From the NCBI RefSeq assembly GCF_018623055.1, contig NZ_CP076019.1, positions 2,666,001-2,730,000 of the forward strand: a stretch of 64,000 bases of DNA, in the 5' to 3' direction. Source of the stretch: Halorubrum sp. 2020YC2. GTDB taxonomy: Archaea; Halobacteriota; Halobacteria; Halobacteriales; Haloferacaceae. Positions within the stretch are counted from its first letter, which is position 1. Every line of letters starts with the position of its first letter. Made by a program: the position numbers and the translations under genes. Shown here piece by piece: positions 1-45,937 of this stretch. The notes under the pieces were generated by a model. It ran no database searches, was not told the DNA's origin, and saw only the letters and a program-made list of their open reading frames with translations.

Positions 1-347
1 AAACAGCCGACCACAGATCGACAGCGAACACCTCCAAAGCCCCAGCCGCGAGGCGAACGCACGCTCGCTGTGCTCCTCACTCGGTCGCTACCGCTCCCTC
101 GTTGCGGTGCTTGCGTCGCCTGCGTTCGCCTCGGGGCTGCCCCTTTGAGTCCACCTCACAGCACCGCAACCGCAGCCTCACACCTCCCCAGCCTCGTCGG
201 CCGGCCTCCGCTTTGCTCCGGCCGCCCGACTCCAGCGAGAATCGAAGATTCTCTGGCAGCCGGCGCGTAGCGCCGGCGACCTCGCGCGTGCTGCTCGGCC
301 GCAGGGCGGCCTCGCAGGCACGCGCCACCGCGGTTCACTTATAAATA
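1..347 (-). repeat. Structured intergenic element, copy A (left end may be cut by the window)
   Basis: First of six copies of an intergenic element. Read on the minus strand it begins at the TTATAAATA box (339-347). It then has the GCGCGTGC/GCACGCGC stem with a GGCCGC inner hairpin, a hairpin between GAGTC and GACGAGGCTGGGG, the motif ACTCAAAGGGGCAG, and finally CTGGGGCTTTGGAGG near position 30. This copy has two extra small hairpins (around 245-275) with a GAA-type loop and a TA-centred loop. The arms on each side of the central loop pair over about 13 bp (CGAGGCGAACGCA with TGCGTTCGCCTCG). Short frames through it show no protein signature, so I treat them as non-coding. Confidence 0.75.
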
Positions 348-8377: not shown

Positions 8378-8935
8378 GTGTTCAGCCTCAACGTCCCGCT
8401 CCCGCCCGCGCTCGACCGGCTCGCGGGCGATCTCCATCCGAAACTAACGGGGTTCGACCGGGTTCGCGAGCGCCACACCCTCGTCTGTAAGCGGTTCGGC
8501 GTCGGAGACGTCCGAAGCGGGAAAGACGGGTCGAAGCAGGACCGGGAGGCGCCGCCCCGAGGGGAGGCAGTCGACCGCCTGCGCGAGCGCCTCCGGCGCC
8601 CCCTCGCCGGGACCGACCCCTTCGAGGTCGCCGTCACCGGAATCGACGTCTTCGACGCGCCGCGGTCGGGGTCGCGGCCGGTGGTGTATCTCACAGTCGA
8701 GAGCGACGAGCTGATCCGGCTTCACCGGCGGCTCTGTGCGTCGTTCGGCGCGGTGGAGGGGATCGAGGGCGACGAGTACGTGCCGCATATCACGCTGGCG
8801 CGGGGCGGGAATCCGGAGCCGGGAGCGGTGGCCGGCCTCGTCGACGCCGAGTTCGATCCGATCCGGTGGCGCGTCCACGCGCTCGACGTGTGGGACCCGG
8901 AGTACCGGGAAGTGGCCGCGAGCGTTGATTTATAA
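8378..8935 (+). CDS. 2'-5' RNA ligase (2H phosphoesterase) family protein
   Basis: A 185-residue 2H phosphoesterase. Its two catalytic HxTx-type motifs are HTLV (about residue 32) and HITL (about 135, in YVPHITLARGG), each starting a beta-strand as in LigT/ThpR folds. Members open or make 2',3'-cyclic or 2'-5' phosphodiester bonds in RNA. It diverges from the second family member at 14980, so it is not a simple duplicate. Its last codons are GAT TTA TAA, inside the TTATAAG box that opens repeat copy B. The last Leu and stop therefore come from the element. GTG start. Confidence 0.82.
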   Translation: MFSLNVPLPPALDRLAGDLHPKLTGFDRVRERHTLVCKRFGVGDVRSGKDGSKQDREAPPRGEAVDRLRERLRRPLAGTDPFEVAVTGIDVFDAPRSGSRPVVYLTVESDELIRLHRRLCASFGAVEGIEGDEYVPHITLARGGNPEPGAVAGLVDAEFDPIRWRVHALDVWDPEYREVAASVDL

Positions 8936-9351
8936 GTGATCGATTGCGGGATGTCGGTGACTACCTCTAAAGCCCCGACCACTCGCTTATAAATAAGCCA
9001 TCGTAGATCGACGGCGACCACCGCCAAAGCCCCAGCCACTCGTTTTTAAATCGTTACTGCCGGATCGACGGCGACCACCTCCAAAGCCCCAGCCGCGAGG
9101 ACTCGCGCACCTCGCTGCGCGCTTCAGTCGCTCGCTTCGCTCGCTCCTTCCAGTGCTTACGTCGGTGTGCTTCGTCCTCGCGGCTGCCCCTTTGAGCCCC
9201 ACCCGACAGCACCGCGACCGCACCTCACGCCTCCCCAGCCTCGTCGGTCGCCGTCGCTTCGCTCGGCGACCGACTCCCTCGCGCGTGCTGGCTCGCGGCC
9301 TGTCGGCCGCTCGCAGGCACGCGCCGGCCGCGGAGGTACTAATTTATAAAT
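8929..9351 (-). repeat. Structured intergenic element, copy B, with two extra tail modules
   Basis: On the minus strand the core runs from the TTATAAAT box at 9344-9351 to CTGGGGCTTTGGAGG near 9080. Two further copies of the 3' module follow, each ending in a TTATAA-like box (TTTTTAAA at 9043-9050, TTATAAATAAG at 8987-8997, TTATAAG at 8930-8936). The period is about 57 bp. The second stem is GTCGGTCGCC/GGCGACCGAC, a compensated variant of copy E's GTCAGTCGCC/GGCGACTGAC. The third stem is CAGCCGCGAGGAC/GTCCTCGCGGCTG. The element fills the gap between the 2H phosphoesterase and P450 operons. No protein-like frame is convincing in it. Confidence 0.8.
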
Positions 9352-12872: not shown

Positions 12873-14648
12873 ATGGACGCCGACGCGGTGCGCGAGCGGG
12901 CCGGAGACCTTCCGACGGAGCCGGGGGTCTACCAGTTCCGAGCGGGCGAGACGACGCTGTACGTCGGCAAGGCGCTCGACCTCCGCGACCGGGTGCGGTC
13001 GTACGCGGACCCCCGCTCGGGCCGCATCCGCGGGATGGTCGAGCGCGCCGACCGGATCGAGTTCGCGGTCACCGACACGGAGACGCAGGCGCTCCTCTTG
13101 GAGGCGAACCTCATCAAGCGGCTGCGGCCGCGGTACAACGTCCGACTGAAGGACGACAAGTCGTACCCGCTCGTGGCCTTCTCGGACCACGAGGTCCCCA
13201 GAATCGAGGTGACCCGCGACCCCGAGGCGGGCGCGGTCGCGTACGGCCCGTTCACCGACGTGGGGCGCGTCGAGACGGTGGTGAAGGCGGTCCGCGACGA
13301 GTACCTGCTGCGGGGCTGCTCGGACCACAAGTACGAGGGGCGCGACCGGCCCTGCCTCGACTACGAGATGGGCATCTGCTCGGCGCCGTGCACCGGCGAG
13401 ATATCCACGGAGAGCTACGCCGAGGACGTGGCGGCCGCGCGGCGCTTCTTCGAGGGCGAGACCGGCGCCCTCGCGGACCCCCTGCGGCGCCGGATGGAGG
13501 CCGCGGCGGAGGCGAACGAGTTCGAGCGCGCCGCGAACCTCCGCGACCGCCTCGAAGCCGTCGAGGCGTTCCACGGCGAGGGCGGCGAGGCCGTCAGCGA
13601 CCGGAGCGACGACCGCACCGTCGACGTGCTGGCGGCCGCGGTGGAGGGCGACGCCGCCCGCGTGGCCCGGCTCCACAGCGAGCGCGGCCAGTTGGTCGAC
13701 CGGACTCGGCACCGACTCGACGCGGCGGCGGTGGAGGAGGGGTCGACCGGCGGCGAGGGGTCCGGAAGCCCCGACGCCAACACCCCCGCGGCCGTCCTCG
13801 CGGCGTTCCTCGCGCAGTACTACGCCGAGCGGGAGTTCCCGGACGCGGTCCTCCTCGCCGAGCAACCCGCCGATCCGGACGTGGTCGACTGGCTGGAGGG
13901 CGAGGGGGTGGCGGTCCGGGTCCCGGGCGCCGGCCGCGATGCGAAGCTGGTCGAACTCGCCCTCAAGAACGCCCGGAAGCGCGGGGGTCGCGACGACCCC
14001 GTGGGCGCGCTGGGCGAGCGGCTCGGAATCGCCCGCCCCGACCGGATCGAGGGGTTCGACGTGAGCCACGCGCAGGGGACCGCCGTCGTCGGCTCCGACG
14101 TGTGCTTCGTCGACGGGAGCGCGGAGACCGCCGACTACCGGCGGAAGAAGCTCACCGAGCGCAACGACGACTACGCGAACATGCGGGAGCTGATCCGGTG
14201 GCGCGCCGAGCGCGCGCTCGCCGGCGAGGACGACCGCCCGGATCCCGACCTCCTCCTGATCGACGGCGGCGAGGGCCAGCTGGGCGCCGCTCGCGACGCG
14301 CTCGCGGAGACGGGCTGGGACGTGCCCGTCGTCGCCCTCGCCAAGGCGGAGGAGCTGGTCGTCACCCCGACCGGCACCCGGCGGTGGGACGACGACGCGC
14401 CCGAACTCCACCTGCTCCAGCGCGTGCGCGACGAGGCGCACCGCTTCGCGGTCTCCTACCACCAGACCGTCCGCGACGAGGTGAAGACGGTCCTCGACGA
14501 CGTGCCCGGCGTCGGTCCCCAGACCCGCCGCCGGCTCCTCCGGCGGTTCGGCTCGGTCGAGAGCGTCCGGGACGCCTCCCGCGAGGACCTCACCGACGTC
14601 GACGGCGTCGGGGGCGCGACCGCCGAGACGCTCCGCGAACGCTTATAA
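12873..14648 (+). CDS. uvrC: Excinuclease ABC subunit C
   Basis: A 591-residue UvrC, which makes both incisions in nucleotide excision repair with UvrA and UvrB. The GIY-YIG nuclease domain is at about 10-90 ([19 protein letters not shown]). A cysteine cluster is near 150-170 ([11 protein letters not shown]...CSAPC). The UVR motif that binds UvrB is near 205-235. The RNase H-like second nuclease domain starts around [10 protein letters not shown] (about 395). A C-terminal helix-hairpin-helix pair ([25 protein letters not shown]) follows. I chose the ATG at 12873; the ATG at 12840 is also in frame. The final codons CGC TTA TAA lie in the opening TTATAAATA box of repeat copy C. Confidence 0.95.
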
Positions 14649-14954
14649 ATAGATCCGCGGTGGCGCGTGCCGGCGGGCGGCCGGAGCGGAGCGGAGGCCG
14701 CGAGTCGCACGCGCGAGGGAGTCGCTGGCGCCGACGGCGCCAGCGACGAGGCTGGGGTGGTGTGAGGTGCGGTTGCGGTGCGGTCGGGGCGGGACTCAAA
14801 GGGGCAGCCGCCGAGGCGGGCGAAGCACGACGACGCAAGCACCGCAGGGAGCGAGTGAAACGAGCGACCGAGGAGCGCAGCGAGCGTGCGCCCGCCTCGG
14901 CGGCTGGGGCTTTGGAGGTGGTCGTCGCCGATCCACGGTTGGATATTTATAAAT
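14643..14954 (+). repeat. Structured intergenic element, copy C
   Basis: This is the cleanest copy, framed by TTATAAATA (14643-14651) and TTATAAAT (14947-14954). Stem 1 is GCGCGTGC/GCACGCGC with an inner GCGGCC/GGCCGC. Stem 2 is GTCGCTGGCGCC-GAC-GGCGCCAGCGAC, perfect over 12 bp with a 3-nt loop. Stem 3 is CAGCCGCCGAGGCGGGCG with CGCCCGCCTCGGCGGCTG, perfect over 18 bp and different in sequence from the other copies. The box at the left end supplies the stop codon of uvrC. The box at the right end is placed to serve as the TATA box of thpR. Confidence 0.85.
14944..14954 (+). promoter_or_regulatory. Probable thpR promoter inside the right edge of copy C
   Basis: TATTTATAAAT is 26-36 nt before the thpR ATG at 14980, the normal TATA distance for a leaderless gene. 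The repeat element thus appears to supply the promoter of the next gene. Confidence 0.55.
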
Positions 14955-14979: not shown

Positions 14980-15561
14980 ATGCGAGCGTTCTTCGCCGTC
15001 GACCTCCCGGACTCGCTCGCGCCGGCCGTCGCGGACGCGCAGGCCCCCTTCGCGGACGCGTCCGGCGTCAACCCGGTCGACCCCGAGCAGGCGCACGTGA
15101 CGCTGAAGTTCCTCGGTGACATTCCCGAAACAGCCGAGAGCGACCCTGAAACTCCCACCGTCGACGACGTGATCGCGGCCGGCGAGCGCGCGGTCGACCG
15201 CGCCGGCGTCGCCCCGTTTAAATGCGCGGTCGCCGGCCTCGGCGTCTTCCCGAACCGCGAGTACATCTCCGTCGTCTGGACCGGCGTCGACCGCGGCGGC
15301 CACGAACTGACCGCGCTCCACGAGGCCCTCGAAGCGGAGACGACCGCGCTCGGCGTCGCCCCGGCCGACCACGAGTTCACGCCGCACGTGACGCTGGCCC
15401 GGGTCGAGAACGCGACCGGGGCCGGGGCGGTCCGGGACGCGCTCGACGCCGGGGACCCGACGGTCGGGTCGTTCTCGGTCGACGAGATCCGACTGCTGAA
15501 ATCGACGCTGACCGAGTCGGGACCGGAGTACGCCGTCGTCCGAGAGTTCGGCCTCGGGTGA
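14980..15561 (+). CDS. thpR: RNA 2',3'-cyclic phosphodiesterase
   Basis: A 193-residue 2H phosphoesterase of the ThpR/LigT group. Its two catalytic motifs are HVTLKFLG (about residue 39) and HVTLARV (about 135). The N-terminus (MRAFFAVDLPD) is characteristic. The enzyme hydrolyses 2',3'-cyclic phosphates left on RNA ends and may also join 2'-5' RNA. A short Asp/Glu/Thr-rich insertion lies near 50-60. It stands alone here. Its likely promoter is the edge of repeat copy C. Confidence 0.93.
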   Translation: MRAFFAVDLPDSLAPAVADAQAPFADASGVNPVDPEQAHVTLKFLGDIPETAESDPETPTVDDVIAAGERAVDRAGVAPFKCAVAGLGVFPNREYISVVWTGVDRGGHELTALHEALEAETTALGVAPADHEFTPHVTLARVENATGAGAVRDALDAGDPTVGSFSVDEIRLLKSTLTESGPEYAVVREFGLG

Positions 15562-32999: not shown

Positions 33000-33289
33000 T
33001 TATAAATAGATCCGCGGTGGCGCGTGCCTGCGAGGCCGCCTTGCGGCCGAGCAGCACGCGCGAGGGAGTCGCGAGCGGAGCGAGCGACGAGGCTGGGGAG
33101 GTGTGAGGTGCGGTTGCGGTGCTGTGCGGGGCGGGACTCAAAGGGGCAGCCGCGAGGACGGCGCAGGCGACGTAAGGACCACAGGGAGTGAGCGAAGCGA
33201 ACGACCGAGGACCGCAGCGAGCGTACGACGTCCTCGCGGCTGGGGCTTTGGAGGTGTTCGACACCGCTCCGCGGTCACTTATTTATAAG
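33000..33289 (+). repeat. Structured intergenic element, copy D
   Basis: Framed by TTATAAATA (33000-33008) and TTATTTATAAG (33279-33289). Stem 1 is GCGCGTGC/GCACGCGC, with an inner TGC-GA-GGCCGC / GCGGCC-GA-GCA that forms a symmetric tandem GA loop. Stem 2 has GTCGC/GCGAC arms. Stem 3 is CAGCCGCGAGGACG/CGTCCTCGCGGCTG. It is the shortest copy. A degenerate tail (AAGCGGCTGTGGCTGTGGAAG) follows to about 33325. Positions 33326-33450 show nothing I can recognise. Confidence 0.82.
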
Positions 33290-33726: not shown

Positions 33727-33820
33727 AGCGTTCGCGCGACGACCCCGCGCCACGCATCGAACGGGACCGAGGCACGGCGTCGGCCGCGAATAAGTAACGA
33801 CTGTTATTTATAAACGCAGA

Positions 33821-34498
33821 TTAAGGTGCCACGCCGACCGTCAACAGCGTCCCCCACGTCCGGTAGCGGTCGACCATCGCCTCGCGCGTCTCGTACCCCT
33901 CGGTCGGGAACGCCGAGGCCTCGGGGATATCGACCTCGTTATCCGGAATCGCGTCCTGCTCGGCGACGTACAGGCCGGCCTCGCGGAACGCCTCGCGGTA
34001 CTCCGCACGCGACCACAGCGTCATGTCGACGGAGATGTTCTCCTGCCACGCGTGGGTCGTCTCGCTCTCTTCGAAGTAGTTGACCGCGCAGTAGAAGGTG
34101 CCGCCCGGCTTCAGCACGCGGCGGACCTCTTCGAGCGTGTGGACCGGGTCGGCCGCGTAGTAGAACGCCTCCATCGAGAAGACGTGGTCAAGCGAGTCGT
34201 CGGCGAAGGGCAGTTCGTCGAAGTCGCCGACGAGGAAGCCGACCGCGTCGTCGTCGGTGTACCCGCGGGCGTTGCGGGCCATCTCCGGGGCGCCGTCGAG
34301 CCCGTACCCGCGGCCGATGCCCCGCTCGCGGAGCGCGCGGAGCGCGTAGCCGGAGCCGGTGCCCAGATCGAGGACGGCGTCGCCCTCCTCGACCGGCATC
34401 CGCGCGAGGACGTGTTTCGCGGTGTGCCAGTGGCGGTCCTCCATGCCGCGGTCCTTCCCCGTCGCCGCCCACTCGTCGAACTCCTCGCGAACGCTCAT
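33821..34498 (-). CDS. Class I SAM-dependent methyltransferase
   Basis: A 225-residue methyltransferase. The SAM loop VLDLGTGSGYALRAL is at about 42-56, motif II-like DFDELPFADDSLDHVFS at about 90-106 and post-II EVRRVLKPGGTFYCAVNYF at about 123-141. The C-terminus (WGTLLTVGVAP) is unusual for the family. Substrate unknown; small molecules such as a quinone are common for this type. A TTATTTATAAA box like those of the repeat elements lies 12 bp beyond the stop. The ATG at 34498 is preferred to one 24 codons upstream. Confidence 0.85.
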   Translation of the reverse strand: MSVREEFDEWAATGKDRGMEDRHWHTAKHVLARMPVEEGDAVLDLGTGSGYALRALRERGIGRGYGLDGAPEMARNARGYTDDDAVGFLVGDFDELPFADDSLDHVFSMEAFYYAADPVHTLEEVRRVLKPGGTFYCAVNYFEESETTHAWQENISVDMTLWSRAEYREAFREAGLYVAEQDAIPDNEVDIPEASAFPTEGYETREAMVDRYRTWGTLLTVGVAP

Positions 34499-38583: not shown

Positions 38584-38759
38584 GGGTCGGAGGCGGCTGA
38601 AATCCTGATTCGCGGGTCTGCTGAATAGAGCGTGTGAATCTCGCACGGAGCCGCGTAAGGATTCAAGTGTTCAGGATCGGCCAACACCGGGAGGGAATGA
38701 ATCAGATCGGCAGCCGCGATGGGATATTTAAACATCTGTGAGCGACGGCGACAATTGTT
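38584..38759. other. Intergenic DNA of lower GC content before copy E
   Basis: This 176-bp stretch has lower GC content than its neighbours and contains GTCTGCTGAATAGAG and a GATATTTAAACATC box. It looks like leftover mobile-element or foreign DNA, but I cannot match it to a known insertion sequence and see no open frame. Confidence 0.3.
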
Positions 38760-39169
38760 TATAAAACGCGATGCGGTCGGCGCGTGCCTGCGAGGCCGCC
38801 TCGCGGCCGAGCAGCACGCGCGAGGGAGTCAGTCGCCGGAGCCGAGCGGAGGCGACTGACGAGGCTGGGGAGGCGTGAGGCGCGGTTGCTGTGCGGTCGG
38901 GCGGGGTTCAAATGGGCAGTCGTGAGGCCGCAGTAGGCGTTCACGAGAGCGAAGCTCTCGTGAGCCAATCAGAACGCTCCGCGTTCTGATGACGACGTAA
39001 GCACTGGAAGGAGCGAGCAACGCGAGCGACTGAAGCGCGCAACGAGCGTACTGCGGCCTCACGGCTGGGGCTTTGGAGATGGTCGTCGTCGATCCGCAGT
39101 CTGCCATTTATAAACGAGCGGCTGGGAATTTGGAAATCTTCACCACGAAGTCGCGAATTACTTATAAAC
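38760..39169 (+). repeat. Structured intergenic element, copy E, with one tail module
   Basis: The core runs from TTATAAAA (38760-38767) to TTATAAA (39108-39114). One tail module of about 54 bp ends at TTATAAAC (39162-39169). Stem 2 is GTCAGTCGCC/GGCGACTGAC. Stem 3 contains CAGTCGTGAGGCCGCAG opposite CTGCGGCCTCACGGCTG, where the single T-G pair is a wobble only if the plus strand is the RNA. Two perfect hairpins are inserted after stem 3: TCACGAGAGC-GAA-GCTCTCGTGA and ATCAGAACGC-TCC-GCGTTCTGAT. The same two occur in copy F. Confidence 0.82.
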
Positions 39170-44398: not shown

Positions 44399-45402
44399 AT
44401 GTCCGAGCCGCACCCCACAGTCCGTCCGACCGACGCCGCGTCCCTCGACGAATCGGACCCCGAGCTCCCCTCGGAGTTGCTGAACGTCCCGTGGATCGAC
44501 CCGCACAACCACGCGCACACGCTCTCGTGGGAGGACCGCGAGCGCTACGCGCTCTCCGGCTGCCGGTCGATGGTGATGGTGTCGTCGGGGTATCACTGGA
44601 CCCCGTACAAGCCCGTCCAAGCCAGCGACATCCGCTTCCTGTGGGACGACGCGATCAACCGCCGGCAAGCGATCGAGCGCAACCACTTCTTCGAGGCGAA
44701 GCTGGGGCTGGGCGTCCACACCGGCGTCCGGATCGAGAACCCCGACGAGCTGCTGGCGGCGATGGACGACTACTGCGCGCTCGACGAGGTCGTCGCGGTG
44801 GGCGAGACGGGCGTGACCCCGATCCAGCACGTCGAGCGCTGGGACGTCGACGAACAGCAGGCGGTCGTTGGGGCGCAGATGGAACTGGCCGAGGACCACG
44901 GCCTCCCCGTCCTGCTCCACACGCCGAACACCACCCCCGAGGCGAAACGCGAGTACCGCGACGACCTCGGCGTCACGCCCGGCTACGAAAGAACGCGGGA
45001 CTCGGCACGGAGCCGGTCCTCGACGGCGAGAACCCCGCGCTCGAAGCCGTGAAACGCGACGTGGAGGCCGCGCGCGACGCCGGCTGGACGAGGAGCGCGT
45101 CGTGGCCTCGCACGCGGACGCGAACAACACCGCGTACCTGATGGAGGACGGACTGTTACCTGAGCTACACCATCGGCCACTCGTGGCTCGTCGGCGTCGA
45201 CGCCGCCGACGTGGCGAACGCCATCGACGAGTACGGTCCCGAGCGGATCATGATCGACACCGACACCGCGAACGTGCTGCGCACGGACCCGTACGCGGTG
45301 AAGCGCGCAATCTTCGAGCTGTACCGCTACGGCATCGACGTCGACGACATCCGGACCGTCGTGTACGAGAACCCGCGGGACGTGTTCGGGCTGGCGGAGT
45401 AG
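44399..45402 (+). pseudogene. TatD-like metal-dependent hydrolase, frameshifted
   Basis: The reading frame must change three times to follow the protein: near 44985-44995 (after LGVTPGYE), near 45080-45087 (after ARDAGW) and near 45147-45153 (after YLMEDG). Pieced together, it has the TatD/amidohydrolase metal ligands: IDPHNHAHT (HxH), GETGVTP (Glu), LLHTPN (His), SHADANN (His) and MIDTDTAN (Asp). The last part (SYTIGHSWLVGVDAADVANAID...) is well preserved. The operator upstream is intact. Either recent decay or sequence error; clustering with two other frameshifted genes favours decay. Confidence 0.75.
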
Positions 45403-45404
45403 AC

Positions 45405-45937
45405 TATTTAAATGAGCCCGCGGTGCGGTGGCGCGTGCCGGTGAGCGGCCGACAGGCCGCGAACCGCACGCGCGAGGGACGCGGCGAACGCGAGCGGCGA
45501 AGCCGCGAAGCGTGAGCCGCGAGGCTAGGGAGGCGTGAGGTGCGGCCGCTGTGCGGGTGGGGTGGGACTCAAAGGGGCAGTCGCGAGGCGACCGTAGGCG
45601 TTCACGAGAGCAAAGCTCTCGTGAGCCAATCAGAACGCTTCGCGTTCTGATGACGACGCAAGCACCGCAGCGAAGGAACGTAGTGACTGAGCGAGGAGCG
45701 TGGTTCGAGACGCCGAAGGCGTCTCGTCATCACGAAAGGCGCGAAGCGCCTTTCGAACGACAGCGAGCGTACGGCCGCCTCGCGGCTGGGGATTTGGAGG
45801 TCGTCACTCCGCCAGTAACGACTTATAAGCGACCAACTGGGACTCCAGAGGCGTTCACCGCCGATCCGCAGGCAACGTTATATAAGCGATCGACGGAGGC
45901 TTTGAATCGCGTCAGGACGTCGGTAATCATTTATAAG
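45405..45937 (+). repeat. Structured intergenic element, copy F, longest, with tail modules
   Basis: The element starts at TATTTAAAT (45405-45413), three bases after the TatD-like stop codon. Stem 1 has CGGT-GA-GCGGCC/GGCCGC-GA-ACCG, again with a tandem GA loop. Stem 3 is CAGTCGCGAGGCG/CGCCTCGCGGCTG with a T-G wobble. It carries the same two inserted hairpins as copy E, plus GAGACGCC-GAA-GGCGTCTC and CGAAAGGCGC-GAA-GCGCCTTTCG. After the core (CTGGGGATTTGGAGG), degenerate tail modules end in TTATAAG (45823-45829), TTATATAAG (45878-45886) and TTATAAG (45931-45937). Confidence 0.82.

Follow-up and report, generated by a model that had tools for sequence, protein, structure and literature searches.

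A structured intergenic repeat of Halorubrum shares its TTATAA box with the ends of some neighbouring genes

The window, a stretch of 64,000 nucleotides from Halorubrum sp. 2020YC2 that was analysed as a whole, holds two genes whose last six letters also belong to something else. The 2H phosphoesterase gene ends GAT TTA TAA and uvrC ends CGC TTA TAA, and in both cases the leucine codon and the stop lie exactly on an AT-rich box of a repeat element (8930–8935 and 14643–14648, respectively), as originally predicted. This raises the question of whether the element gave these genes their ends, as the same prediction proposed, or whether gene and element came to share six bases in another way.

The element and its boxes at gene ends

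The features of the window on which the analysis rests are the following.

1–344, minus strand: element copy, cut by the window edge; left box 339–344
1914–1926, unstranded: solo box TTATTTATAAATT
8378–8935, plus strand: 2H phosphoesterase (LigT-like) gene
8930–8935, plus strand: TTATAA, serving both as Leu-stop of the 2H gene and as the element's outermost tail box
8930, 8987 and 9043–9049 (degenerate), minus strand: boxes of the 57 nt tail units of the 2H-side copy
8936–9343, minus strand: element copy beside the 2H gene, with tail units of 57 nt
9344–9349, minus strand: left box TTATAA of the 2H-side copy
12873–14648, plus strand: uvrC
14643–14648, plus strand: TTATAA, serving both as Leu-stop of uvrC and as left box of the element copy that follows
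14643–14952, plus strand: element copy separating uvrC from a second LigT-like gene; right box 14947–14952
14980–15561: second LigT-like gene, following the uvrC-side copy
33000–33288, plus strand: element copy; boxes 33000–33005 and 33283–33288
33804–33814, unstranded: solo box TTATTTATAAA beside a methyltransferase stop
38759–39167, plus strand: element copy; boxes at 38759, 39108 and 39162
45405–45936, plus strand: element copy after a TatD-like gene; left box TATTTAAAT, tail boxes at 45823 and 45931

In Halorubrum the element is a GC-rich, non-coding and strongly structured intergenic repeat of approximately 300–400 nt. It opens with a left box (TTATAA-ATA). Two hairpins follow, the first being GGCGCGTGC...GCACGCGC, and then a core in which CTCAAAGGGGCAGCCGCGAGG pairs with CCTCGCGGCTGGGGCTTTGGAG; the copy closes with a tail whose unit of 51–57 nt is sometimes repeated. 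AT-rich TTATAA boxes mark the left end and terminate every tail unit. Exact matches to the tail motif number 82 genome-wide. The left-box consensus is near-palindromic and in its fullest form is the palindrome TTATTTATAAATAA with TTATAA inside. The left hairpin begins about 15–25 nt inward of this box; among 34 copies compared, nearly all preserve its stem, and changes close to the loop are compensatory. RNAalifold applied to these 34 copies of one genome gave a consensus fold of −193 kcal/mol, to which covariation contributes strongly. Pairs that alternate between C-G, G-C, U-A and A-U are numerous, which argues that the fold is conserved, either as RNA or as single-stranded DNA. The element is a candidate for a family of structured RNA or single-stranded DNA. 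Rfam returned no match at gathering score for the whole window and none at E≤1 for one element copy.

Tail units of 51, 54 or 57 nt are also found in tandem arrays of up to six nearly identical copies (locus L008 at 2502–2833, and L003, L048, L051 and L031), which are local expansions of one element end. In the clade of genomes G016 and G021 (G016 blocks L312–L315; L341–L366) the elements persist with their TTATAA boxes mostly gone; 77 kb of G016 contain a single TTATAA, and the tail frequently reads GGCTTCGG.

The host genome, that of a Halorubrum whose uvrC is 95 % identical to that of named Halorubrum, is 70 % GC, and the leucine codon of the box is rare in it. TTATAA occurs 15 times in the window, where shuffles predict 0.17. 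The 3.06 Mb genome contains 420 copies of it and 92 of the reversed hexamer, which served as control. Among 152 occurrences in our sample, which comprises 56 repeat-centred loci (L001–L056) and the window, 138 are intergenic near an element match, 12 are intergenic away from one and 2 are intragenic. TTA accounts for 103 of 78,121 internal codons (1.3 per 1000), confirming its predicted rarity, and is the last codon in 8 of 320 genes.

When all called gene ends of the 56 loci and the window were slid against TTATAA, the two coincided 7 times at offset 0. Every other offset between −30 and +11 scored zero, and each offset from +12 to +60 scored 0 to 5. Genes ending in TTATAA make up 7 of 75 genes with an element match within 150 nt of the 3′ end and 0 of 236 others (Fisher 3.8e-5); in blocks from eight genomes the figures are 12 of 44 where an element lies no more than 300 nt downstream and 2 of 562 where none does. 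The 66 element-bearing intergenic regions comprise 27 convergent, 28 tandem and 11 divergent ones. Of their 80 three-prime-facing sides, 6 lie at a distance of exactly zero and the next at 12 nt, a count whose filter left out the zf-CHY case (L026) described below. On the opposite side only 1 of 46 five-prime-facing element sides comes within 60 nt of a start codon, in line with the proposed selection against gene disruption. Promoters and coding sequence are thus avoided by the elements, while some stop codons directly adjoin an element end. The precise placement at gene ends with some link to TTATAA that had been suggested is borne out by this pile-up and by the orthologues below. In the same sample, TAA stops are commoner beside elements even when TTATAA cases are removed (23 of 68 versus 31 of 236). 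The boxes were also considered as TATA boxes lying some 30 nt upstream of start codons, and a general role of this kind was rejected, with 2 of 31 box-to-start distances of up to 150 nt falling at 24–36 nt; the LigT-like gene after uvrC, 33 nt from its box, is an exception with TATA-like spacing.

Two further gene ends had been placed next to boxes, and both are indeed close to one, though not as described. The TatD-like stop (45400–45402) lies 2 nt rather than three bases before a box that reads TATTTAAAT and not TTATAA, and the methyltransferase stop (33821–33823, minus strand) lies 6 nt, not 12, from the solo box TTATTTATAAA and 7 nt from the TTATAA inside it. The TatD-like gene (44399–45402) carries several frame changes in this assembly, with 217 aa open compared to 335 aa in six relatives, and is either a pseudogene or affected by sequencing error.

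Gene ends in orthologues with and without the element

Ten genes ending on a box (TTATAA, CTATAA or TTTTAA) in the window genome were compared with their orthologues, using up to 34 Halorubrum sequences per gene. An orthologue was scored as having the element if a profile match lay within 300 nt downstream; 3 rows, in which the downstream sequence fell short of 300 nt, were left out.

Seven of the ten, namely uvrC, 2H, an AIR-synthase-like gene, hemB, DUF192, L020 and L004, have an ancestral terminal residue and stop position. This residue is Leu in five of them and Phe in two (L020 and L004), and it is kept in 110 of 116 element-free orthologues, usually as CTG, TTG or TTC followed by TGA or TAG. 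Since residue and stop are ancestral, the element does not add a codon here; box and gene end share six bases. What differs is the spelling: TTATAA or TTTTAA is found in 67 of the 95 orthologues with the element and in 22 of the 116 without it, these being raw counts that ignore relatedness and include the rows of the window genome, in which the ten genes were picked for the coincidence. Genes facing the left end of the element carry either hexamer in 44 of 46 cases with element and 12 of 47 without, compared to 23 of 49 and 10 of 69 for genes facing the tail. Beside the element, 26 of the 49 tail-facing ends are thus neither TTATAA nor TTTTAA, often retaining a GC-richer Leu- or Phe-stop. The AT-rich hexamer is distributed over the single genes as follows.

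uvrC: 13 of 13 with element, 2 of 21 without
hemB: 17 of 19 with element, 5 of 10 without
L020 (Phe): 14 of 14 with element, all TTTTAA; 5 of 16 without, TTC and a stop being found in 10 of these 16
2H: 7 of 16 with element, 4 of 12 without (singly non-significant, p 0.7)
AIR-synthase-like: 7 of 12 with element, 1 of 18 without
DUF192 (L021): 3 of 8 with element, 2 of 22 without (singly non-significant, p 0.1)
L004 (Phe): 6 of 13 with element, 3 of 17 without (singly non-significant, p 0.12)

On the uvrC tree we counted at least 6 changes for element presence, 8 for box state and 8 for both jointly, showing that box and element change together several times and that the association does not go back to one event.

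For the two genes that prompted the question, the proposal that the element supplies the last codon and stop does not hold. Leu is the last residue in all 21 element-free Halorubrum orthologues of uvrC and in 11 of 12 of 2H, and in both genes the element-bearing state differs from the element-free one only synonymously. Element-free orthologues that themselves end in TTA TAA, named in advance as evidence against a supply by the element, exist as a minority (2 of 21 for uvrC, 4 of 12 for 2H).

The proposal applies to the other three of the ten genes, whose ends have changed. Among element-free orthologues of the zf-CHY gene (L026), those alignable up to the end have their stop some 12 codons further upstream, and 13 of 16 element-bearing ones run on by about 12 residues to end in TTATAA at the box. 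In L051 an ancestral ER* becomes ERDL* beside the element, a gain of two residues; of seven sequences with the element, five end in TTATAA, one in CTATAA and one is unextended. DUF6360 (L013A) reads DDSS* or DDAD* without the element and DSL* with it, the final Ser or Asp having turned into Leu in 7 of 12. In all three genes the altered C-terminus is supplied by the box.

How gene and element may come to share six bases

The reading we regard as probable is that of a shared hexamer, in which the element sits at TTWTAA-like sites and its box doubles as the Leu- or Phe-stop of the gene, held AT-rich through synonymous change. Some copies are positioned such that the box is the last sense codon and stop of the neighbouring gene, and the protein remains unchanged if the gene already ended on Leu (TTA TAA) or Phe (TTT TAA). 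At most shared ends the protein is unchanged because gene end and element end are the same six letters. We infer that the element inserted at TTWTAA-like sequences, for which Leu- and Phe-stop gene ends would offer a tolerated source in a genome this rich in GC, and that a need of the element for its left box keeps this box AT-rich, while a minority of genes may have lost or changed their own stop and come to use the box. Two states in relatives are consistent with such a course. At two hemB loci (L212 and L226) TTATAA is followed after 5–6 nt by the stop of the convergent gene with no element in between, which looks like a target-like state. In another species the L020 locus (L379) reads TTCTAG followed, by eye, by apparent left-end sequence with the element itself undetectable, which looks like decay after element loss.

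The changed ends of zf-CHY, L051 and DUF6360 are what would be expected if mutation or truncation had removed the original stop of a gene and reading continued to the stop of the box, which would then supply both codon and stop, and the excess of TAA stops beside elements outside the TTATAA cases (23 of 68 versus 31 of 236) agrees with this as well. As a general explanation, however, such capture is refuted by the seven of ten genes that keep the last residue and stop position of their element-free orthologues, and we consider it unlikely beyond the minority. Less probable still is that insertion or gene conversion swapped CTGTAG-like DNA for TTATAA, with only synonymous insertions being kept. 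This would explain why uvrC in close element-free relatives of element-bearing species ends in CTGTGA or CTGTAG and not in TTATAA, but L020 and L004 carry TTTTAA and hemB has TTATAA without the element in 5 of 10 sequences. The match at L020 follows the gene's own residue, Phe; ends that read TTATAA for Leu and TTTTAA for Phe speak for an AT-rich site used in common and against replacement of the gene end by one invariant element terminus. That gene ends are AT-rich for reasons of their own, such as 3′ end signals or codon drift, with elements merely gathering downstream, is strongly disfavoured and in our view very improbable: elements are indeed commoner at gene 3′ ends (27 convergent and 28 tandem versus 11 divergent regions), but TTATAA ends number 0 of 236 without an element within 150 nt and 2 of 562 in the eight-genome blocks.

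Within the shared-hexamer reading, a more specific and tentative idea concerns what holds the left box. It may be a working site of the element, either a promoter or a palindromic protein-binding site, and at the same time encode the host gene's final residue and stop, whereby TTATAA or TTTTAA would be kept against GC pressure and decay synonymously after element loss, and the repeat would home to Leu- or Phe-stop sequences. The near-palindromic left box TTATTTATAAATAA is a putative site that could suit a dimeric DNA-binding protein. If this idea is true, the repeat imposes a dual-coding constraint on gene ends. Sharing of the hexamer would allow a high-copy element to occupy the ends of genes in a compact, GC-rich archaeal genome without cost, and would account for the local excess of a very rare codon as well as for C-terminal extensions in a few proteins. 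With the same six bases set against synonymous alternatives in dozens of orthologues, these loci also represent a natural test of constraint on an element end.

Spread and relation to known repeats

The element is present in all 22 same-genus Halorubrum genomes listed, the window genome included. Across the class, matches were obtained in 125 of 194 genomes and 45 of 65 genera with three candidates scored per genome, and those outside Halorubrum are partial, covering mostly core and hairpins; presence is therefore claimed within Halorubrum only, and the element may be an old, class-wide family. No match was found in 50,697 phage records. The open-licence literature searched contains no description of the repeat, which is weak evidence for its novelty.

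Traces of mobility were sought at several levels. The comparisons revealed no recent insertion. In G016 and G021, the most similar genomes (94 % over the compared loci), the differing sites also differ in other sequence, so that neither a clean empty site nor a duplication can be read there. Orthologous intergenic regions of seven relatives, too diverged or rearranged, yielded no clean insertion event, and at hemB a copy of TTATAA is absent from the far side, where a target duplication would place it. TTATAA stands at both element ends, but also inside the tail units, and a comparison by eye of the 34-copy consensus left end with the reversed right end revealed only TTATAAAT and a short GCGG motif in common. 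As to a parent transposon of the Y1 (IS200/605) family, element matches were present within the flanks at 4 of 25 Y1-transposase loci from 12 genomes, with no consistent placement at the transposase ends.

REP and BIME sequences are structured extragenic repeats located close after stop codons. Whereas a REP sits downstream of the stop, the box of our element is the last codon and the stop itself.

A resemblance in length exists to the halovirus HF2, a virus related to Halorubrum, for which the accessible text of PMC8707807 describes intergenic repeats of 56–58 nt carrying promoters with a TATA-like box, close in size to the 57 nt tail unit; the motifs quoted there differ from ours. Prokaryotic MITEs, in the accessible portion of PMC10969869, are short, non-coding, high-copy and intergenic, all of which applies to the element, but clear terminal inverted repeats were not recognised in it by eye, its parent transposase was not found among the Y1 family, and the term 'stop codon' does not appear in that review. 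The PATEs and SMRs of Haloquadratum, as far as the available part of PMC3119063 covers them, are transposase-free, present in many copies and have no demonstrated target duplication, and PATEs have palindromes near the end that match IS605-type transposon ends. Our element is likewise haloarchaeal, multi-copy and transposase-free, and its left hairpin provides a near-terminal palindrome. It differs in that a relation to IS605-type ends is not seen, given the few and inconsistently placed matches at Y1 loci, and in its tandem 57 nt tail units and stop-codon overlap, which that part of PMC3119063 does not mention. With the palindrome present and the IS605 relation lacking, the element is not classed as a PATE, SMR or MITE; closest to it are the transposase-free haloarchaeal repeats that these represent.
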